From Microvirga sp. KLBC 81 (GTDB taxonomy: Bacteria > Pseudomonadota > Alphaproteobacteria > Rhizobiales > Beijerinckiaceae), in the NCBI RefSeq assembly GCF_003075415.1, contig NZ_QDAH01000002.1:62001-126000 (forward strand): a stretch of 64,000 nucleotides of DNA. The letters run 5' to 3'. The position numbers and the translations under genes are program-made. Under the pieces are notes generated by a model. It worked only from the letters and a program-made list of their open reading frames with translations, was not told where the DNA came from and ran no database searches. This document shows, piece after piece, positions 47,180 to 53,236 of this stretch (positions are counted from its first letter, which is position 1; the number at the start of each line of letters is the position of its first letter).

Positions 47180-47321
47180 CGAGAACTCCGGCAGAACACG
47201 AAAGCGTGAGGCGTGGGAGTGAACGGGCGCGGTGTAGCTGAGTTCCTTGTTTTTGCTTTCCCCCCTCTTTTCAGGGCCGTGGTGTGGCTTTCGAGGCTTC
47301 GTTTGGGTAAAACCCGCCACC

Positions 47322-48743
47322 ATGATCGCGAAAAATGAGACATTTGATAAATCCGCCTGGCTGGCGGAGCTGCGGGCGACGCTGTCTTTGGGCTGGCCTC
47401 TGATTCTGACAAACGTGGCGCAGAACGCCCTGATGACATCGGATGTCATCCTCATGGGATGGCTCGGCTCCGATGCCCTGGCGGCCGGCGCCCTCGGCAC
47501 GAATCTTTATTTCGCCTTCCTGATTTTCGGCATCGGCCTCATGAGCGCAACCTCGCCTCTGATCGCCGAGGAGCTGGGTCGCAGGCGTCATTCCGTCCGC
47601 GAGGTGCGCCGGACGGTGCGGCAGGGATTCTGGGCGGCGCTCACTGTCGCGGTGCCGATCTGGATCGTCTCCTGGAACGGCGAAATCATCCTGCTCGCCA
47701 TGGGACAGGAGCCGAGGCTCGCGCACGAGGCGGGTGAGTACATGCGCGCGCTCCAATGGAGCCTGCTGCCGTTCCTGCTCTATCTCGTGCTGCGCTCGTT
47801 CCTGGCAGCATTGGAGCGTCCCGGCTGGCCGCTCATCATCGGCGTTCTCGCCGTTCCGGTGAACTTAGGAGCCGCCTATTGCTTCATGTTCGGCAAGTTC
47901 GGCATGCCACATCTTGGCCTGATCGGCGCGGGCGTGGGCACGGTTGTGTCGAGCACCTTCATGTTCGTCGCTCTGGCCCTCGTGATCGGCCTCGATCCAA
48001 AGCTCAATCGCTACCACATCTTCGGCCGCTTCTGGCGTTCCGATTGGCCGCGCTATCGGACGCTCTGGCGCATCGGCGTGCCCATCGGCCTGACGCTCGC
48101 CTTCGAGGTGACGATCTTCAACGCGGCGGCCCTCCTCATGGGGCGCATCGGCGCCAATGAACTGGCCGCCCATGCCATCGCGCTTCAGATCGCCTCCTTC
48201 TGCTTCATGGTCCCCTTCGGCTTAAGCCAGGCGGCAACGGTGCGCGTGGGCCGTGCCTATGGTGCGCAGGATGCAGCGGGCGTGACGCGGGCGGGCTGGA
48301 CGGCTTTTGCTCTTGCCGCGAGCTTCATGATCGTCACCGCGTCTCTCATGCTTTTTGCCCCGCACCTGCTGCTGAGTGCCTTCCTGGATCTCAGCGACCC
48401 AAAGAATGCGCCGGTGATCGGCTTTGCCGTTTCCTTCTTGGTCATGGCGGCGATCTTCCAGCTCGCCGACGCGTCGCAGGCTGTGGGTGCGGGCATGCTG
48501 CGCGGCCTGCAGGATACGCGGGTGCCGATGCTCTATGCGGCCTTCGGCTACTGGGGCATCGGCCTGCCACTCGGCGTGATCCTGGCCTTCGGCACGCCGC
48601 TTCGCGGCATCGGCATCTGGATCGGCCTGGCGACGGGGCTCGGCGTCGTCGCCTCCCTGATGCTCTGGCGCTGGGTGCGCCGCGACCGGCTCGGCTTGGT
48701 CACGGCCGTGCCGCAGGATGTTCAGGAGGCATTCGCGAGCTGA
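47322..48743 (+). CDS. MATE-family efflux transporter (NorM-like)
   Basis: 473 aa with twelve hydrophobic segments, multidrug/toxin exporter driven by Na+ or H+. First half begins SLGWPLILTNVAQNALMTSDVILMG (about residue 20-44), typical of NorM; the second-half repeat starts with RIGVPIGLTLAFEVTIFNAA (about 247) and GLSQAATVRVGRAYGAQ (about 303). Start 47322 fits; an in-frame start at 47247 adds residues that do not resemble the family. Its end overlaps the ispH remnant (convergent) by 22 bp. Divergent from the amidoligase operon. Confidence 0.93.
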   Translation: MIAKNETFDKSAWLAELRATLSLGWPLILTNVAQNALMTSDVILMGWLGSDALAAGALGTNLYFAFLIFGIGLMSATSPLIAEELGRRRHSVREVRRTVRQGFWAALTVAVPIWIVSWNGEIILLAMGQEPRLAHEAGEYMRALQWSLLPFLLYLVLRSFLAALERPGWPLIIGVLAVPVNLGAAYCFMFGKFGMPHLGLIGAGVGTVVSSTFMFVALALVIGLDPKLNRYHIFGRFWRSDWPRYRTLWRIGVPIGLTLAFEVTIFNAAALLMGRIGANELAAHAIALQIASFCFMVPFGLSQAATVRVGRAYGAQDAAGVTRAGWTAFALAASFMIVTASLMLFAPHLLLSAFLDLSDPKNAPVIGFAVSFLVMAAIFQLADASQAVGAGMLRGLQDTRVPMLYAAFGYWGIGLPLGVILAFGTPLRGIGIWIGLATGLGVVASLMLWRWVRRDRLGLVTAVPQDVQEAFAS

Positions 48744-49126
48744 GCGATCAGCTTTGAGAGATCGACCGGTGCGAATTGCATGCCCTCATGGGTCACGTGG
48801 ACTTCCCCGACGGTGATCCGCCGCCACTGCGCAAGCAGGGCGAGAGCCCCCTGCACCAGCTCCTCCGGCGCGGACGCGCCAGCGGTGAGGCCGATCACTG
48901 CCGCTCCGTCGATGAAGGAGAGCGTCAGGTCCTTCGGATCCTGCATGAGAAGCGCGGGCCGCCCCTCGCTCTCCGCCACTTCGCGGAGACGATTCGTGTT
49001 CGATGAATTGCGCGCACCGCACACGATGATGCGCTCGGCCCGTTTGGCGATGACCCGCACGGCGAGTTGGCGGTTCTGCGTGGCGTAGCAGATCGTCTTC
49101 GTGTCCGGTCCCTGGATGGCGGGGAA
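48722..49126 (-). pseudogene. ispH: 3' half of ispH (HMBPP reductase), truncated
   Basis: About 134 codons matching the C-terminal part of IspH, the last enzyme of the MEP isoprenoid pathway. Recognisable are FPAIQGPDTKTICYATQNRQ, GARNSSNTNRLREVAE and GLTAGASAPEELVQG, including the SxN and second/third-Cys regions. The N-terminal half, with the first 4Fe-4S Cys, is missing; the sequence runs upstream into hpnE in another frame at about 49126-49135. Not functional. Because MEP-dependent cells need IspH, another copy should exist elsewhere. Confidence 0.85.
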
Positions 49127-49827
49127 AGGCTCAAGCCGATGACGCGCCGATCATTGGTCAGAAGCTGTCTCAGGCGCTGTCCTGTCAGGATAGAGACACC
49201 GTGTGCCTTCAGGGTTGCGACCACTGGTTGGATCAAATCCTCGCTTAGACCATTCTTCGCGACCAGCAGCCTGCCTGAGCGTGGCCACAGCAGACGCCGT
49301 AATGCGAGAGCAAGCCGCTTGGCGGAGGCGACATTCGGCGGCGTGTTGAGAACGGCGACCGTGAGAGGGCCGATCAGGCTGTCCATGATGGGCCTGTCGC
49401 AGATGATGGAGGCCACCGAGCATTCCTGCGCCGGAAAGGCGAGGCGCACGATGCGCGAGAGATCGGCGAGGCCCAGGCCTTTCGGGCGTCGCGACGGCCA
49501 CAGCCAGGACCAGGGCGACAGACCGATGCGTCGCTTGGTTCCTGCGCGCATATCGTGAATGGGAAGTCCTTTCGGCTCCGGTTCGATCCATCTGTCTCTC
49601 GCCCCAACGGCTTTGAGGAGGTTCAGCGCATGCCGGTTCGCCGTGAACAGCACATGGGTGCCGTTGTCGTGAGAAAAGCCACCGGCCGGATGCAGCGTGC
49701 GGCAGCGCCCGCCTGGATGCGGGGCCGCCTCATAGAGAATGACCTCCCCGCCTTCCTTCGTCACGGCGAGGGCGGCACTCAGGCCGGCAATGCCGGCTCC
49801 GATGATATGGATGCGTCTTGCCGTCAT
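49127..49827 (-). pseudogene. hpnE: 5' part of hpnE (hydroxysqualene dehydroxylase), truncated
   Basis: About 234 of some 420 residues of an HpnE-type FAD enzyme, which with HpnC and HpnD makes squalene. The FAD-binding turn IIGAGIAGLSAALAV is at the start, then HPGGRCRTL and DNGTHVLFTANRHALNLL. The sequence stays family-like to RRVIGLS and then breaks into ispH in a different frame. Its ATG overlaps the stop of the hpnD remnant by 4 bp, showing the old operon order. Confidence 0.85.
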
Positions 49828-50105
49828 GCGGGCCTCATGGCGCGGGTGAGGAGGTGCAATTTGTCTGTCGCTGTCAGCTGGAGTTTTCCCTGGCGTGTGC
49901 CCGAGCCGCGGTCGGTGAGCCGTTCGAGAACGCGACGGTAGTTTTCCATCATCAGGATCGCGGGTTCGAGGTCGGCCCGATCAAGGCGCGTCAAGGCTTC
50001 GTCCGCGGCGGCAATGCCTGCACGGGCCTCATCGGCCAAAGTCTCGCACACGCGGGCGAAGCGTGGATCGGCGACGAGGACGGCCGCCGGCGCATCCGAT
50101 AGAGC
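49824..50105 (-). pseudogene. hpnD: 3' end of hpnD (presqualene diphosphate synthase)
   Basis: About 93 codons matching the end of HpnD/squalene-phytoene synthase proteins: AVLVADPRFARVCETLADEA, ADLEPAILMMENYRRVLERL and a Leu/Arg end. No start or active-site Asp-rich motifs remain. Upstream it joins the desaturase remnant near 50090-50110. CrtB is the alternative, but overlap with hpnE favours hpnD. Confidence 0.75.
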
Positions 50106-50974
50106 ACGACGCCGGAGCAGGCGGGCTCGAAATCCTTTCGGGCGTAATGCTCGCCCACCTCGCCGCCCACGAGCTCGCGATAGGTGCGAATGGAATCCAT
50201 GTTGGAGATGACGCTGTCGTAAGCCGCGGCATCTCCATTGGCGAGCACAAGACCCTTGACCGCGCCATCCTCGATCTGCACGGAGGTCACGTCCGATGCG
50301 GGCTTGAAGGCCGCACCGAGTTCGGCCGCGAGCTTCATCAGCGCCTCGGCCACCGCGCGCGTGCCGCCCATGGGATACCACACGCCATCTGCCGCCTGCA
50401 TATGCGCGATGGCGCAGAGAACGGCGGGCGAGCCGTAGGGAGAAGAGCCCGCATATTGCGTGAAATGATCGAGCATCTGCGCCAGACGCTTGTCCTTCAC
50501 CTTGGAGCGTATGATGCCGGCAACCGACGAACCCATGCGCAGGGACAGCACATCCCGTAGGGTGGCAGGGTTCATGTTGGCGCGGATGTTGATGGTGTCG
50601 AACAGGTCCTCCACCGGTTTTCAGAGGAAGAAGCGATTGGAAATGTCGAGAAGATGCGCCGAGATTTCCTGGAAGCGCTTGTAGCCCTCGCCAGCGCCCC
50701 TGCCGGACACGAAGCGATCCATGGCATCGATGTCTTCCTGCAGGTCGATCCGCGTGCCGTCATCGAAGAAACAGCGCCATTGCGGATCCAGCCGCACGAG
50801 GTCGAGATAATCGCTTAAATTGCGTCCGGCTTCTGCGAAGATGCGCTCCAAAACACGTGGCACGGTGAGGATCGTCGGGCCCATGTCGAAGCGAAAGCCG
50901 CCTTCGTGCAGCACTGCTGGCTTGCCGCCCAGACCCCCGCCGATCGCGGCAACAGAAGCTCCTTGAGCGCTCAC
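50106..50974 (-). pseudogene. CrtI/CrtN-type desaturase remnant B
   Basis: Starts with GTG at 50974 (ribosome site GGAGGA) as VAAIGGGLGG, then jumps directly to KPAVLHEGGFRFDMGPTIL, so about 25 residues of the FAD fold are deleted between two LGG words. The frame continues to FFL and meets TGA at 50621-50623 where the family has Trp (W of KPVEDLFDTI), then continues in the same frame (MGSSVAGIIRSKVKD, YGSPAVLCAIAHMQ, VISNMDSIRTYREL) to CSGVVLY and breaks into hpnD. About 290 of some 500 codons are left. Product was a carotenoid (phytoene or squalene-type) desaturase. Confidence 0.85.
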
Positions 50975-51309
50975 GAAGGTCCTCCCGTCAGATCCCGGCC
51001 ATGAAACGTTGGCGCAAAGGCTCTCAGGCCTTTTCCCCTAGTCGTGCGCATGGCTCGAAGCTCTGGTTCTAGGAAGCGCCAAACGCGGTTCAAGGTGACC
51101 TCATGATCATGGGACGACGGGCGCAGATCATGTGCATCACGTGCCCTCCGGCGCGCGGATGACAGGATCGAAGCCTGCGGCAGCGAAGAGGACCCCGCAC
51201 ATCGTTGGTATAATAGAGCAGCGGAGGCCCCGGCCTGCGCCAGGGGCGAAAGCCCATGCGATCTCCACCATGGGGGAGGACAGCATAGGCGCGCCACAGC
51301 ATGGGAAAC
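50975..51309 (-). other. Degraded stretch between desaturase B and the DUF2141 remnant
   Basis: 335 bp. Short protein-like pieces occur in different minus frames (GVLFAAAGFDPVIRAPEG, and LNRVWRFLEPELRAM close to 51065). They look like leftovers of one more gene, but I cannot name the family. No intact gene, repeat or tRNA. Confidence 0.4.
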
Positions 51310-51569
51310 TTACCGGATCTGGATCACGATCATCGTCGAGGGATCTTTCACGATGATGCGGGCTGCTTCGAAATTCGGTGGACCGCGCCGGCCTTCGCCG
51401 TTTCTCGGTCCCTGTAGGGGCAGGTGATCTCCTCGAAGCTGGTGTCGCAGATGCCGGCATAAACCATGCCCTGCGTGGAGCCGACACCTTCTGCGCGTAT
51501 GGTGAGGGTGGCGGCCTGGGCGGAGGACGCGATGAGAACGAAACCCAAAATCCACCCAACGCGTCTCAT
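51310..51569 (-). pseudogene. DUF2141 protein remnant
   Basis: Start at 51569 (ribosome site AAGGAAT region) with signal peptide RVGWILGFVLIASSAQA and the family's opening TLTIRAEGVGSTQGMVYAGIC. After about 60 codons the frame is lost near 51380 and the family's end, PPNFEAARIIVKDPS, appears in another frame with stop at 51310. About 50 central residues (usually AVFHDENGNG) are missing. DUF2141 genes are common beside carotenoid genes. Confidence 0.7.
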
Positions 51570-51579
51570 TCCTTCTCCC

Positions 51580-52522
51580 CTATGAAGTGGCCTCGCGGAT
51601 TGCTTGCGTCTCAGGTTCCCGCTCGCGCCATCCGGCACGTCGGCGTTCCCAGTCTTCCAACAGGAGGCGTGTGGTGATGCGCGCACCCTCGTAGATGACC
51701 GGCAGGCCGCTGCCGGGATGCGTTCCGCCGCCCACCAGGTAGACGTTGCGACCGAACCGGTTGTGCGGCCGGAAATAGAGCATCTGGGTGAGATTGTGTG
51801 CGAGGCTGAAGGTTGCGCCCTCGAAGACGGAGAACTCGTCCTGCCAGCCGCGCGGCGTCACCATACGCTCGAAGCGGATCCTGCCTTCGAGGTCCGTGAG
51901 GCCCAGGAGCTTCGATCTCTCGAGCACGATTCTGCGGTAGCGTTTTGCCTCGTGCCGCTAGTCGATGTTACAGCGCAAATTCGGAACTGGCATGAGCAGG
52001 TAGAGGCTCGTGTGACCTTTGGGGGGCAGCGACGAATCCGTCGCACCGGCATGCTGCACATAAATCGAAGGCTCTTCTGGCATAACACCTCCGGTGATCT
52101 CGCGAATATTGCGCTCGTAATCGCGGGCAAGAAGAATCGTGTGATGTGAGAGGTCCCCCACCTCACTCTCGGATGCCGAGATAGAGCATGAAGGTCGAGC
52201 ACGAGAGTTTGGCGCGGCTGAACTTCTTGTTTGACCACCGTGGGCGCAAGGTCTGCGGCACGAGACGATTCATGGCATGGCCGAAATCGCCGTTGACGAC
52301 AATGGCGCCCGCCGCAAAATGCTCGCCGCCGGTTTCGACGCCAACAGCCTCGCCACCTTCGTAGAGAATGCGGTCCACCGGAGTATCGAGCCGAATATGG
52401 ACACCCATCTTGCGGGCGACCTTCGCCATGGCTTCCGATACCGCGCCGCAACCGCCGATGGCAAGGCCGCCAGGGCCTGCGCCGACGACGGCCACACGCG
52501 GCGAGTGCAAGGCATTCGGCAT
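51580..52522 (-). pseudogene. CrtI/CrtN-type desaturase remnant A
   Basis: Begins MPNALHSPRVAVVGAGPGGLA at 52522, then jumps at about 52455 to IGGCGAVSEAMAKVARKMG, losing roughly 200 codons. FSCSTFMLYLG-like sequence is followed by a frameshift near 52160 and continues as LSHHTILLARDYERNI and YVQHAGATDSSLPPKGH, then a TAG at 51958-51960 in place of the Trp of NIDW. Beyond it the same frame goes on with RYRRIVLERSKL, FSLAHNLTQMLYFRPHNRF and GTHPGSGLPVIYEGAR to the stop. Three lesions. Distinct from remnant B in sequence, so the operon once had two desaturases. Confidence 0.88.
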
Positions 52523-52822
52523 GGATCGGCAACCCTCGGTGCTGCTGGTTGCAGGAAAACCCGTAATCCATCCCAACTAGAACAGCCGAGTTCGGCGGCC
52601 AGAGGCAAGGCTCCCAAAAGGGGTAAAATTTTCAAAATTACCGCAGGATAACGAAACTATATCCAGGCTATATCCCGCTGATTTGTCCTGAGTCCAGGCT
52701 ATAGTTCACGTTAATCCCCTGGCGCAAAAGTATGAGATCGTAACGCAAAAATCGAAGTGCCTTATTCTTGCCTTTTTAAAGATGAGCTTCACTTCCAATT
52801 GAAACGGAAGGGGAGACCATTT
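52523..52822. other. Intergenic region before rlpA
   Basis: 300 bp. Holds the former promoter of the desaturase operon and the rlpA promoter. A direct repeat, CCAGGCTATA, occurs at about 52664 and 52694. No gene recognised; moderately AT-rich toward the right. Confidence 0.4.
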
Positions 52823-53236
52823 TTGAAGAACATTCTCACCCGCGTGTCAGCAATGGCGCCACTTCTATTCGTTGCTGCATGCAATACGACTGCTTCTAAC
52901 GATCCCACGACGACGGGATCCATCTCGCAAGCCAGCCTGGGTCGGGAATTTCAGAGGGGCACCGCCTCTTGGTATGGCCCCGGCTTCCACGGCCGGAAGA
53001 CCGCCAGCGGTGAGCGGTTCAACTCCTACGACATGACGGCGGCCCACCGCTCTTTGCCCTTCGGCACGAGGCTCAGGGTCGTCAATGAAACGAATGGCCG
53101 CTCGGTCGTTGTTCGCGTCAATGATCGCGGACCATTCGCCCACCGGCGCATCATCGATCTGGCTAAGGGACCCGCCCAGGCGCTGGGTCTGACCGCCACC
53201 GGTACCGGCTATGTCTCCCTGCACAGGCTCGATTAG
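52823..53236 (+). CDS. rlpA: RlpA-family septal-ring lipoprotein
   Basis: 137 aa from a TTG start chosen because it gives a proper lipoprotein signal (hydrophobic core, lipobox FVAAC, Cys20) and follows GGGGAG; the frame is open to GTG 52757. The double-psi beta-barrel domain has GTASWYGPGFHGRKTASGE (about residue 48) and DRGPFAHRRIIDLAKGPA (about 103), with the conserved Asp. RlpA cleaves glycan strands lacking stem peptides. No SPOR domain, so it is the short form. Downstream neighbours are unrelated. Confidence 0.9.
   Translation: MKNILTRVSAMAPLLFVAACNTTASNDPTTTGSISQASLGREFQRGTASWYGPGFHGRKTASGERFNSYDMTAAHRSLPFGTRLRVVNETNGRSVVVRVNDRGPFAHRRIIDLAKGPAQALGLTATGTGYVSLHRLD

Follow-up and report, generated by a model that had tools for sequence, protein, structure and literature searches.

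Cluster remnants between intact flanks

The window analyzed here is a stretch of 64,000 nucleotides from Microvirga sp. KLBC 81 (RefSeq assembly GCF_003075415.1, contig NZ_QDAH01000002.1, positions 62,001 to 126,000). Between two intact genes, one for a MATE-family transporter and the other presumably for an RlpA-like protein, lies a row of broken genes that we interpret as the remains of a C30-carotenoid biosynthetic cluster (Table 1). The transporter gene was found in all 48 Microvirga genomes of the sample, which includes KLBC 81 (= G000; genomes, loci and contigs are cited by our G, L and C numbers). Its named relatives belong mostly to Microvirga, with M. vignae nearest to KLBC 81. The original prediction, made from the letters of the window, had guessed Methylobacteriaceae, correctly, and the genus is Microvirga.

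Relatives such as L035 and L046 carry a complete cluster at this MATE-rlpA site. The intact order is CrtI-family gene 1, a DUF2141-like gene, a methyltransferase, CrtI-family gene 2, an acyltransferase, a group-2 glycosyltransferase, an HpnC-HpnD fusion, HpnE and IspH. Lesions in KLBC 81 were scored against the intact orthologues in L035 (= G004, a metagenome-assembled genome) and L046 (= G016). The acyltransferase, the glycosyltransferase and HpnC are wholly missing, and all other genes of the cluster are broken, so that the KLBC 81 copy no longer holds a complete, open set of pathway genes. In total we counted seven deletions, three frame changes and two stops. Because the remaining pieces have 67–90% amino-acid identity to their orthologues and lie in the same order, chance resemblance can be excluded.

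Table 1. Features of the cluster remnant and of its flanks, by position in the window
Feature	Position	Strand	Remarks
MATE-family transporter	47247..48743	+	Intact flank; site marker
Remnant cluster	48722-52522	-	Order: CrtI-family gene 1, DUF2141-like, methyltransferase, CrtI-family gene 2, HpnD, HpnE, IspH
IspH remnant (second, the cluster's own)	48722..49126	-	C-terminal 134 codons
Deletion junction	49127/49128		~1.15 kb absent relative to L035: end of HpnE and IspH codons 1-188
HpnE remnant	49128..49827	-	N-terminal ~233 codons, frame still open
HpnD part of fused HpnC-HpnD	49827..50096	-	C-terminal 90 codons
Deletion junction	50097/50098		~3.9 kb absent relative to L035
CrtI-family gene 2 remnant	50099..50974	-	511 aa when intact; adjoins the acyltransferase; CrtP-type candidate
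Methyltransferase remnant	51093..51302	-	About the first 40 and the last 32 codons, frame change; 364 aa when intact
DUF2141-like small secreted protein remnant	51310..51569	-	Internal deletion and frame change
CrtI-family gene 1 remnant	51589..52522	-	516 aa when intact; CrtN-type candidate
RlpA-like protein (presumed)	52757..53236	+	Intact; opposite edge of the site

Gene 1 keeps codons 1–21 (52460–52522), has lost codons 22–224 (203 codons) in frame, and carries one frameshift near 52139–52203 and a TAG stop at 51958–51960. The lesion in the DUF2141-like gene was read by eye against intact frames in L041, L046 and L034; a Pfam scan of its 56-aa fragment gave no match, and the DUF name is that of the original prediction. 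Decay of the methyltransferase is uninformative by itself, since no match to this gene was found in several otherwise intact clusters (L035, L094, L066, L072 and L037). Gene 2 keeps codons 1–321, minus in-frame losses of 25 and 4 codons, and has a TGA stop at 50621–50623; its 3' part is deleted. The 3.9-kb deletion took the end of gene 2, the acyltransferase, the glycosyltransferase, HpnC and the part of HpnD that ends near codon 462 of the fused gene. In relatives a short repeat lies near both ends of this deletion. No deletion mechanism is claimed, because the repeat is not retained in the KLBC 81 product.

The original prediction had placed the remnants in this order and on this strand. It had named all of them except the methyltransferase, which it overlooked, and the three wholly missing genes were not visible to it. 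Its count of lesions (about five deletions, at least two frameshifts and two nonsense codons) was right or slightly low.

Recency of decay was assessed by comparison with M. vignae (G018/L048/L059), which is 91–93% identical to KLBC 81 over the flanks and the shared piece. Gene 2 and the acyltransferase are gone from its cluster, as are gene 1 past codon 61, the greater part of the glycosyltransferase and almost the whole of IspH. Two frameshifts interrupt HpnD and HpnE (the latter near codon 326). No M. vignae lesion coincides with a KLBC 81 lesion. A stretch of ∼970 bp retained by both strains has no internal indel, no stop and open frames, and thus holds no ancestral lesion common to the two. 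Because the lesions differ and the shared stretch is clean, the decay is recent, as originally predicted, and the visible lesions, most or all of them, postdate the separation of the two lineages. Note that a shared first lesion may have lain in a stretch since deleted in one lineage.

To look for other copies, the whole KLBC 81 assembly was searched, as the original prediction had proposed; neither another C30 desaturase nor a plausible squalene synthase was found. The gene 2 query matched this locus only, and the next-best CrtI-family match (contig C49) scored 95.5 bits against a cut-off of 238. No HpnC/HpnD-type pair was found elsewhere in the assembly, with SQS_PSY matches confined to contig C6 and this locus. 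The C6 protein (280 aa) has a similar-scoring counterpart in 48 of 48 genomes. It was rejected as a spare squalene synthase because, by eye, both Asp-rich motifs are absent from the KLBC 81 copy; it scores 124 bits against the HpnD cut-off of 279 and 62 bits against the HpnC cut-off of 250. We presume that it is NDUFAF6-like. An intact ispH lies at G000:C1:127520-128356. Loss of the cluster's own ispH therefore need not matter.

The intact cluster and its predicted product

Family assignments were made on the intact orthologues. Genes 1 and 2 score 508 and 403 bits, respectively, with TIGR02734 (cut-off 238), so that the intact Microvirga clusters hold two CrtI-family enzymes. The glycosyltransferase (PF00535, 81 bits) and the acyltransferase (PF01553, 28 bits) are both above their cut-offs and would supply the tailoring functions, and the methyltransferase matches Methyltransf_25. 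For squalene supply, the top NCBIfam matches of the respective stretches are HpnC, HpnD and HpnE. The fused HpnC-HpnD protein exceeds both cut-offs only as a whole-protein score across two stretches; the HpnD half alone gives 266.8 bits against a cut-off of 278.6, and HpnE gives 222.5 against 283. The two halves of the fusion lie in one frame of 552 aa (L035:7768-9423).

HpnC and HpnD halves in frames of equal length were seen in 34 of the 48 Microvirga genomes. Both genes of the hopanoid-type HpnC/HpnD pair were seen in three genomes (G007, G012 and G056), each time as separate genes. Among 121 genomes sampled across the order, one (G090) likewise shows both halves in equally long frames, so that such a fusion is perhaps not unique.

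This gene set matches the pathway of Methylobacterium extorquens AM1 and so bears out the original description of the locus as a decayed C30-carotenoid cluster with squalene made by way of HpnC, HpnD and HpnE. According to the available text of PMC10448405, the M. extorquens AM1 product is 4-[2-O-11Z-octadecenoyl-beta-glucopyranosyl]-4,4'-diapolycopenedioic acid, formed from squalene that is made by three enzymes (META1p1815-1817); the later genes are META1p3670 (CrtN), META1p3665 (CrtP), META1p3663 (glycosyltransferase) and META1p3664 (acyltransferase), and crtN and crtP mutants are colorless. The enzyme classes are those of the intact Microvirga cluster, and a glycosyltransferase, an acyltransferase and a CrtI-family gene are adjacent in both. 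In M. extorquens AM1, however, the genes are not all at one locus, whereas Microvirga keeps them in a single cluster, dead in KLBC 81, in which HpnC and HpnD are fused and a second ispH is included. Note that the Microvirga glycosyltransferase and acyltransferase were matched to Pfam families and not directly to the M. extorquens proteins. Because crtP has the glycosyltransferase and the acyltransferase as neighbors in M. extorquens, we take gene 2 to be the probable CrtP-type enzyme and gene 1 the probable CrtN-type enzyme. The staphyloxanthin cluster (CrtM/N/P/Q/O) shares the C30 backbone and the logic of desaturase, oxidase, glycosyltransferase and acyltransferase (in part from the available text of PMC10448405), but uses CrtM where the Microvirga cluster uses HpnC, HpnD and HpnE. 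The same text states that no CrtO homologue was found in M. extorquens. Our searches of the open-licence literature gave no account of this cluster in Microvirga among the papers listed, as far as their text was available.

In the proposed pathway, the HpnC-HpnD fusion and HpnE would convert two farnesyl diphosphates to squalene, the two CrtI-family enzymes would desaturate and oxidize squalene to 4,4'-diapolycopenedioate, and the glycosyltransferase and acyltransferase would complete an acyl-glucosyl ester, the pink pigment. The extra IspH would raise the precursor supply. The cluster very probably provides relatives with a pink C30 carotenoid. In KLBC 81 and, with other lesions, in M. vignae, it was destroyed recently by deletions, frameshifts and nonsense mutations. 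Because the cluster is wrecked, KLBC 81 should be colorless, in agreement with the lack of pigment originally predicted, and it should also be without squalene or hopanoids.

Distribution in the genus and colony color

Gene 2, one of the two predicted C30 desaturases, is full length in 33 of the 48 genomes, broken in KLBC 81 and not found in 14. For the survey of the site, desaturase-, HpnE- and methyltransferase-like matches were left out if they had less than 38% identity together with E >1e-15. Nine genomes have an empty site and no cluster elsewhere (M. flavescens, M. alba, M. brassicacearum, M. flocculans, M. zambiensis, M. terricola, strains VF16 and ACRRW, and G048). Only an HpnE-like gene is left at the site in M. 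solisilvae and M. thermotolerans, and wrecks are found in M. vignae and KLBC 81. M. lupini LUT6, one of the 14, has only a C40-type CrtI and, at the site, a 28-codon ghost of gene 1. The cluster lies at another place in M. massiliensis and G043. In M. puerhi (L032, G001:C19:567-3466) an intact HpnC-HpnD frame and an HpnE with a stop were seen elsewhere, with no desaturase; this is possibly a further independent decay.

Changes of state were counted on a tree of the flanking proteins with 44 Microvirga rows, built by a quick method; 6 of its 41 inner branches are weak. For the count, M. massiliensis and G043 were taken as present (cluster elsewhere) and M. puerhi as absent (no desaturase, HpnC-HpnD elsewhere). 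The outgroups L097 and L099 had very long branches and did not fall on one side, and the count was made without them. Presence and absence require at least 10 changes, with 11 all-absent clades. Deep absences, such as that of M. flavescens, could be ancestral; loss is favored because the cluster is at the same address in most genomes.

Loss of this kind is known in the family. In the available text of PMC8561711, a full carotenoid cluster is reported for all Methylobacterium species except Methylobacterium nodulans and Methylobacterium jeotgali (data not shown there), and the antiSMASH section of that paper gives a carotenoid cluster in all genomes. These two would also be Methylobacteriaceae that lost the cluster, and Methylobacterium nodulans is likewise a nodule symbiont. 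Microvirga differs in that a wreck is still readable and in that at least 10 changes of state fall within one genus. The KLBC 81 locus adds a real, recent and well-explained example to a kind of loss that is already known and fairly ordinary, and its main interest lies in the repeated loss across one genus and the match to color.

Colony colors were taken from papers, as far as their text was available. Five of five species with the cluster are pink (M. subterranea, M. aerophila, M. aerilata, M. sesbaniae and M. tunisiensis), and four of four without it are not (M. brassicacearum, white or transparent; M. thermotolerans, milk white; M. lupini LUT6, white-opaque; M. flavescens, faint yellow). 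Over these nine species the association has a Fisher p value of 0.008, and the four non-pink absences fall in four separate all-absent clades. For M. tunisiensis, the color is that of strain LmiM8 and the locus that of Lmie10. Left aside were M. lotononidis (pale pink; genome unmatched), M. massiliensis and M. vignae (color not found), M. yunnanensis (pink; no named locus) and species known by telling names alone (alba, rosea and roseola).

Two correlates of loss were tried. nodA is present in 8 of 48 genomes, among them M. vignae and KLBC 81 (G000:C105:2711-3292), which for this reason probably lives in legume nodules as a symbiont. Of the 8 genomes with nodA, 4 lack the desaturases or have them broken, versus 11 of 40 others (p = 0.24), and a link between nodulation and loss was not retained. 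The six genomes of 4.0 Mb or less all lack desaturases, versus 9 of 42 larger ones (p = 0.0004, with the threshold chosen post hoc). Rank tests of genome size against loss, uncorrected for kinship, gave p = 0.11 over all 48 genomes and p = 0.002 over the 40 without nodA.

Weighing of the evidence

The pseudogenization of a C30-carotenoid cluster, lost recently in KLBC 81 and, with different lesions, in M. vignae, as one of about 10 separate losses in the genus, is assigned a probability of roughly 0.92. The lesions, the intact orthologous cluster, the lack of other copies in the assembly, the recurrence of loss and the color match in nine species are all observed; the enzyme functions, the product and the KLBC 81 phenotype are inferred. 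Several points weigh on the other side. No phenotype is on record for KLBC 81, and its 6.86-Mb assembly is a draft of 357 contigs with 6.63% estimated contamination; the color of M. vignae was not found in the one paper searched for it. For M. sesbaniae the available description is at odds with itself, with light pink colonies in the text and orange ones in a table, and the pigment it reports is the C40 carotenoid zeaxanthin. Symbionts of Lotononis angolensis are called pink in a paper title of 2007; the cluster-less M. zambiensis, for which no strain color was found, may be one of them and so a possible exception to the color match. Finally, the substitutions give no signal of relaxed selection: derived nonsynonymous to synonymous counts (N:S) in the retained hpnD and hpnE pieces are 17:15 in KLBC 81 (p = 1.0) and 14:9 in M. 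vignae (p = 0.49), against 51:47 in an intact pair. Because these ratios do not differ from that of the intact pair, the case for decay rests on the lesions.

An assembly or sequencing artefact, in which collapses and base errors mask a cluster that is intact in the organism, is what the draft state and the contamination estimate might suggest. We consider it very improbable, given that all the deletions, frame changes and stops counted above are crowded into one locus between intact flanks, that none of the searched genes has a second copy except for the intact, essential-type ispH and the common SQS_PSY gene, and that the sister species M. vignae is broken in other ways at the same locus. 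Equally, the remnants are very unlikely to have retained any function themselves, such as one carried by the HpnE half that is still open. What remains of HpnE and HpnD has open frames in each of the two wrecked strains, and a full-length HpnE-like gene stands alone at the site in two other species; against this, HpnE has lost its C-terminal part in KLBC 81 and is frameshifted in M. vignae, and the N:S counts show no special constraint. The lone genes of M. solisilvae (L109:3055-4338) and M. thermotolerans (L117:11113-12336) are free of stops, and their survival at emptied sites in two separate lineages possibly reflects a role outside the pathway.

A decayed hopanoid locus, with HpnC, HpnD and HpnE feeding squalene to hopanoid synthesis, would fit what is generally known of these families, whose enzymes make the squalene that hopanoid synthesis uses. 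The original prediction had named hopanoids in its title and allowed that they could be affected. This part is not supported, and the hopanoid reading is rejected as extremely unlikely, since squalene-hopene cyclase has no match above the Pfam cut-off in KLBC 81 and therefore does not accompany the squalene genes there. The cut-off is passed in 5 of 48 genomes (G001, G007, G012, G053 and G056), where the cyclase sits at another locus, with IspH adjoining it in each and HpnD above the strict cut-off beside it in four. The intact form of the cluster studied here holds desaturases, a glycosyltransferase and an acyltransferase.

The remaining question concerns the nature of the pink pigment across the genus. 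Zeaxanthin with crtBI genes has been reported for M. sesbaniae (PMC11356035, in the text available). This is unexpected, and the assignment is open to question, because a full-length lycopene cyclase of the common family PF05834 was found in only 1 of 48 genomes, that of M. lupini LUT6; note that the C40 test covered this CrtY/CrtL-type cyclase family only. Other genomes gave weak, mostly N-terminal matches (best E 1.6e-7), by which 42 of 48 pass the low cut-off. The cluster is thus not a C40 cluster with a CrtY/CrtL-type cyclase. The 842-bp crtB described for M. sesbaniae is similar in length to the genus-wide SQS_PSY gene and may be that copy. We think it fairly likely that the pink of the genus as a whole is a C30 ester from this one cluster rather than zeaxanthin, lost about 10 times, including in all sampled genomes of at most 4.0 Mb and in half of those with nodA, so that one address now shows sites that are intact, half-decayed, reduced to a single gene or empty. 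If so, the genus would be a natural experiment on the erosion of a photoprotective pathway once it stops paying. The analysis points to the probable pigment genes of a genus from soil and nodules, provides a genotype-to-color rule that fits the nine species with both kinds of data, and offers graded losses at one site as material for studying pathway decay.

Some loci elsewhere in these genomes touch on the same families. In LUT6 (G039, C152:66378-69924, L122), whose colonies are described as white-opaque, the full-length lycopene cyclase lies beside CrtI-like and CrtB/HpnD-like genes. At the hopanoid locus of G053 (C1:1786222-1791337, L121) the cyclase and IspH remain, and the HpnD profile gives just a 50-codon match; the C30 cluster of this genome, at C2, is mostly in place, without IspH, and may supply squalene for hopanoids. 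KLBC 81 has a weak match to the cyclase profile (G000:C96:8569-8769, 21.2 bits) in a frame with a DADDTA motif. Next to this frame are genes of kaurene-synthase-like and IDI-2-like type, with an IS3-type transposase nearby (L137:372-4613). Judging by their motifs, these C96 genes are probably a rhizobial gibberellin operon. Weak matches to the same profile were also seen in G018, G039 and G058, all of which carry nodA.

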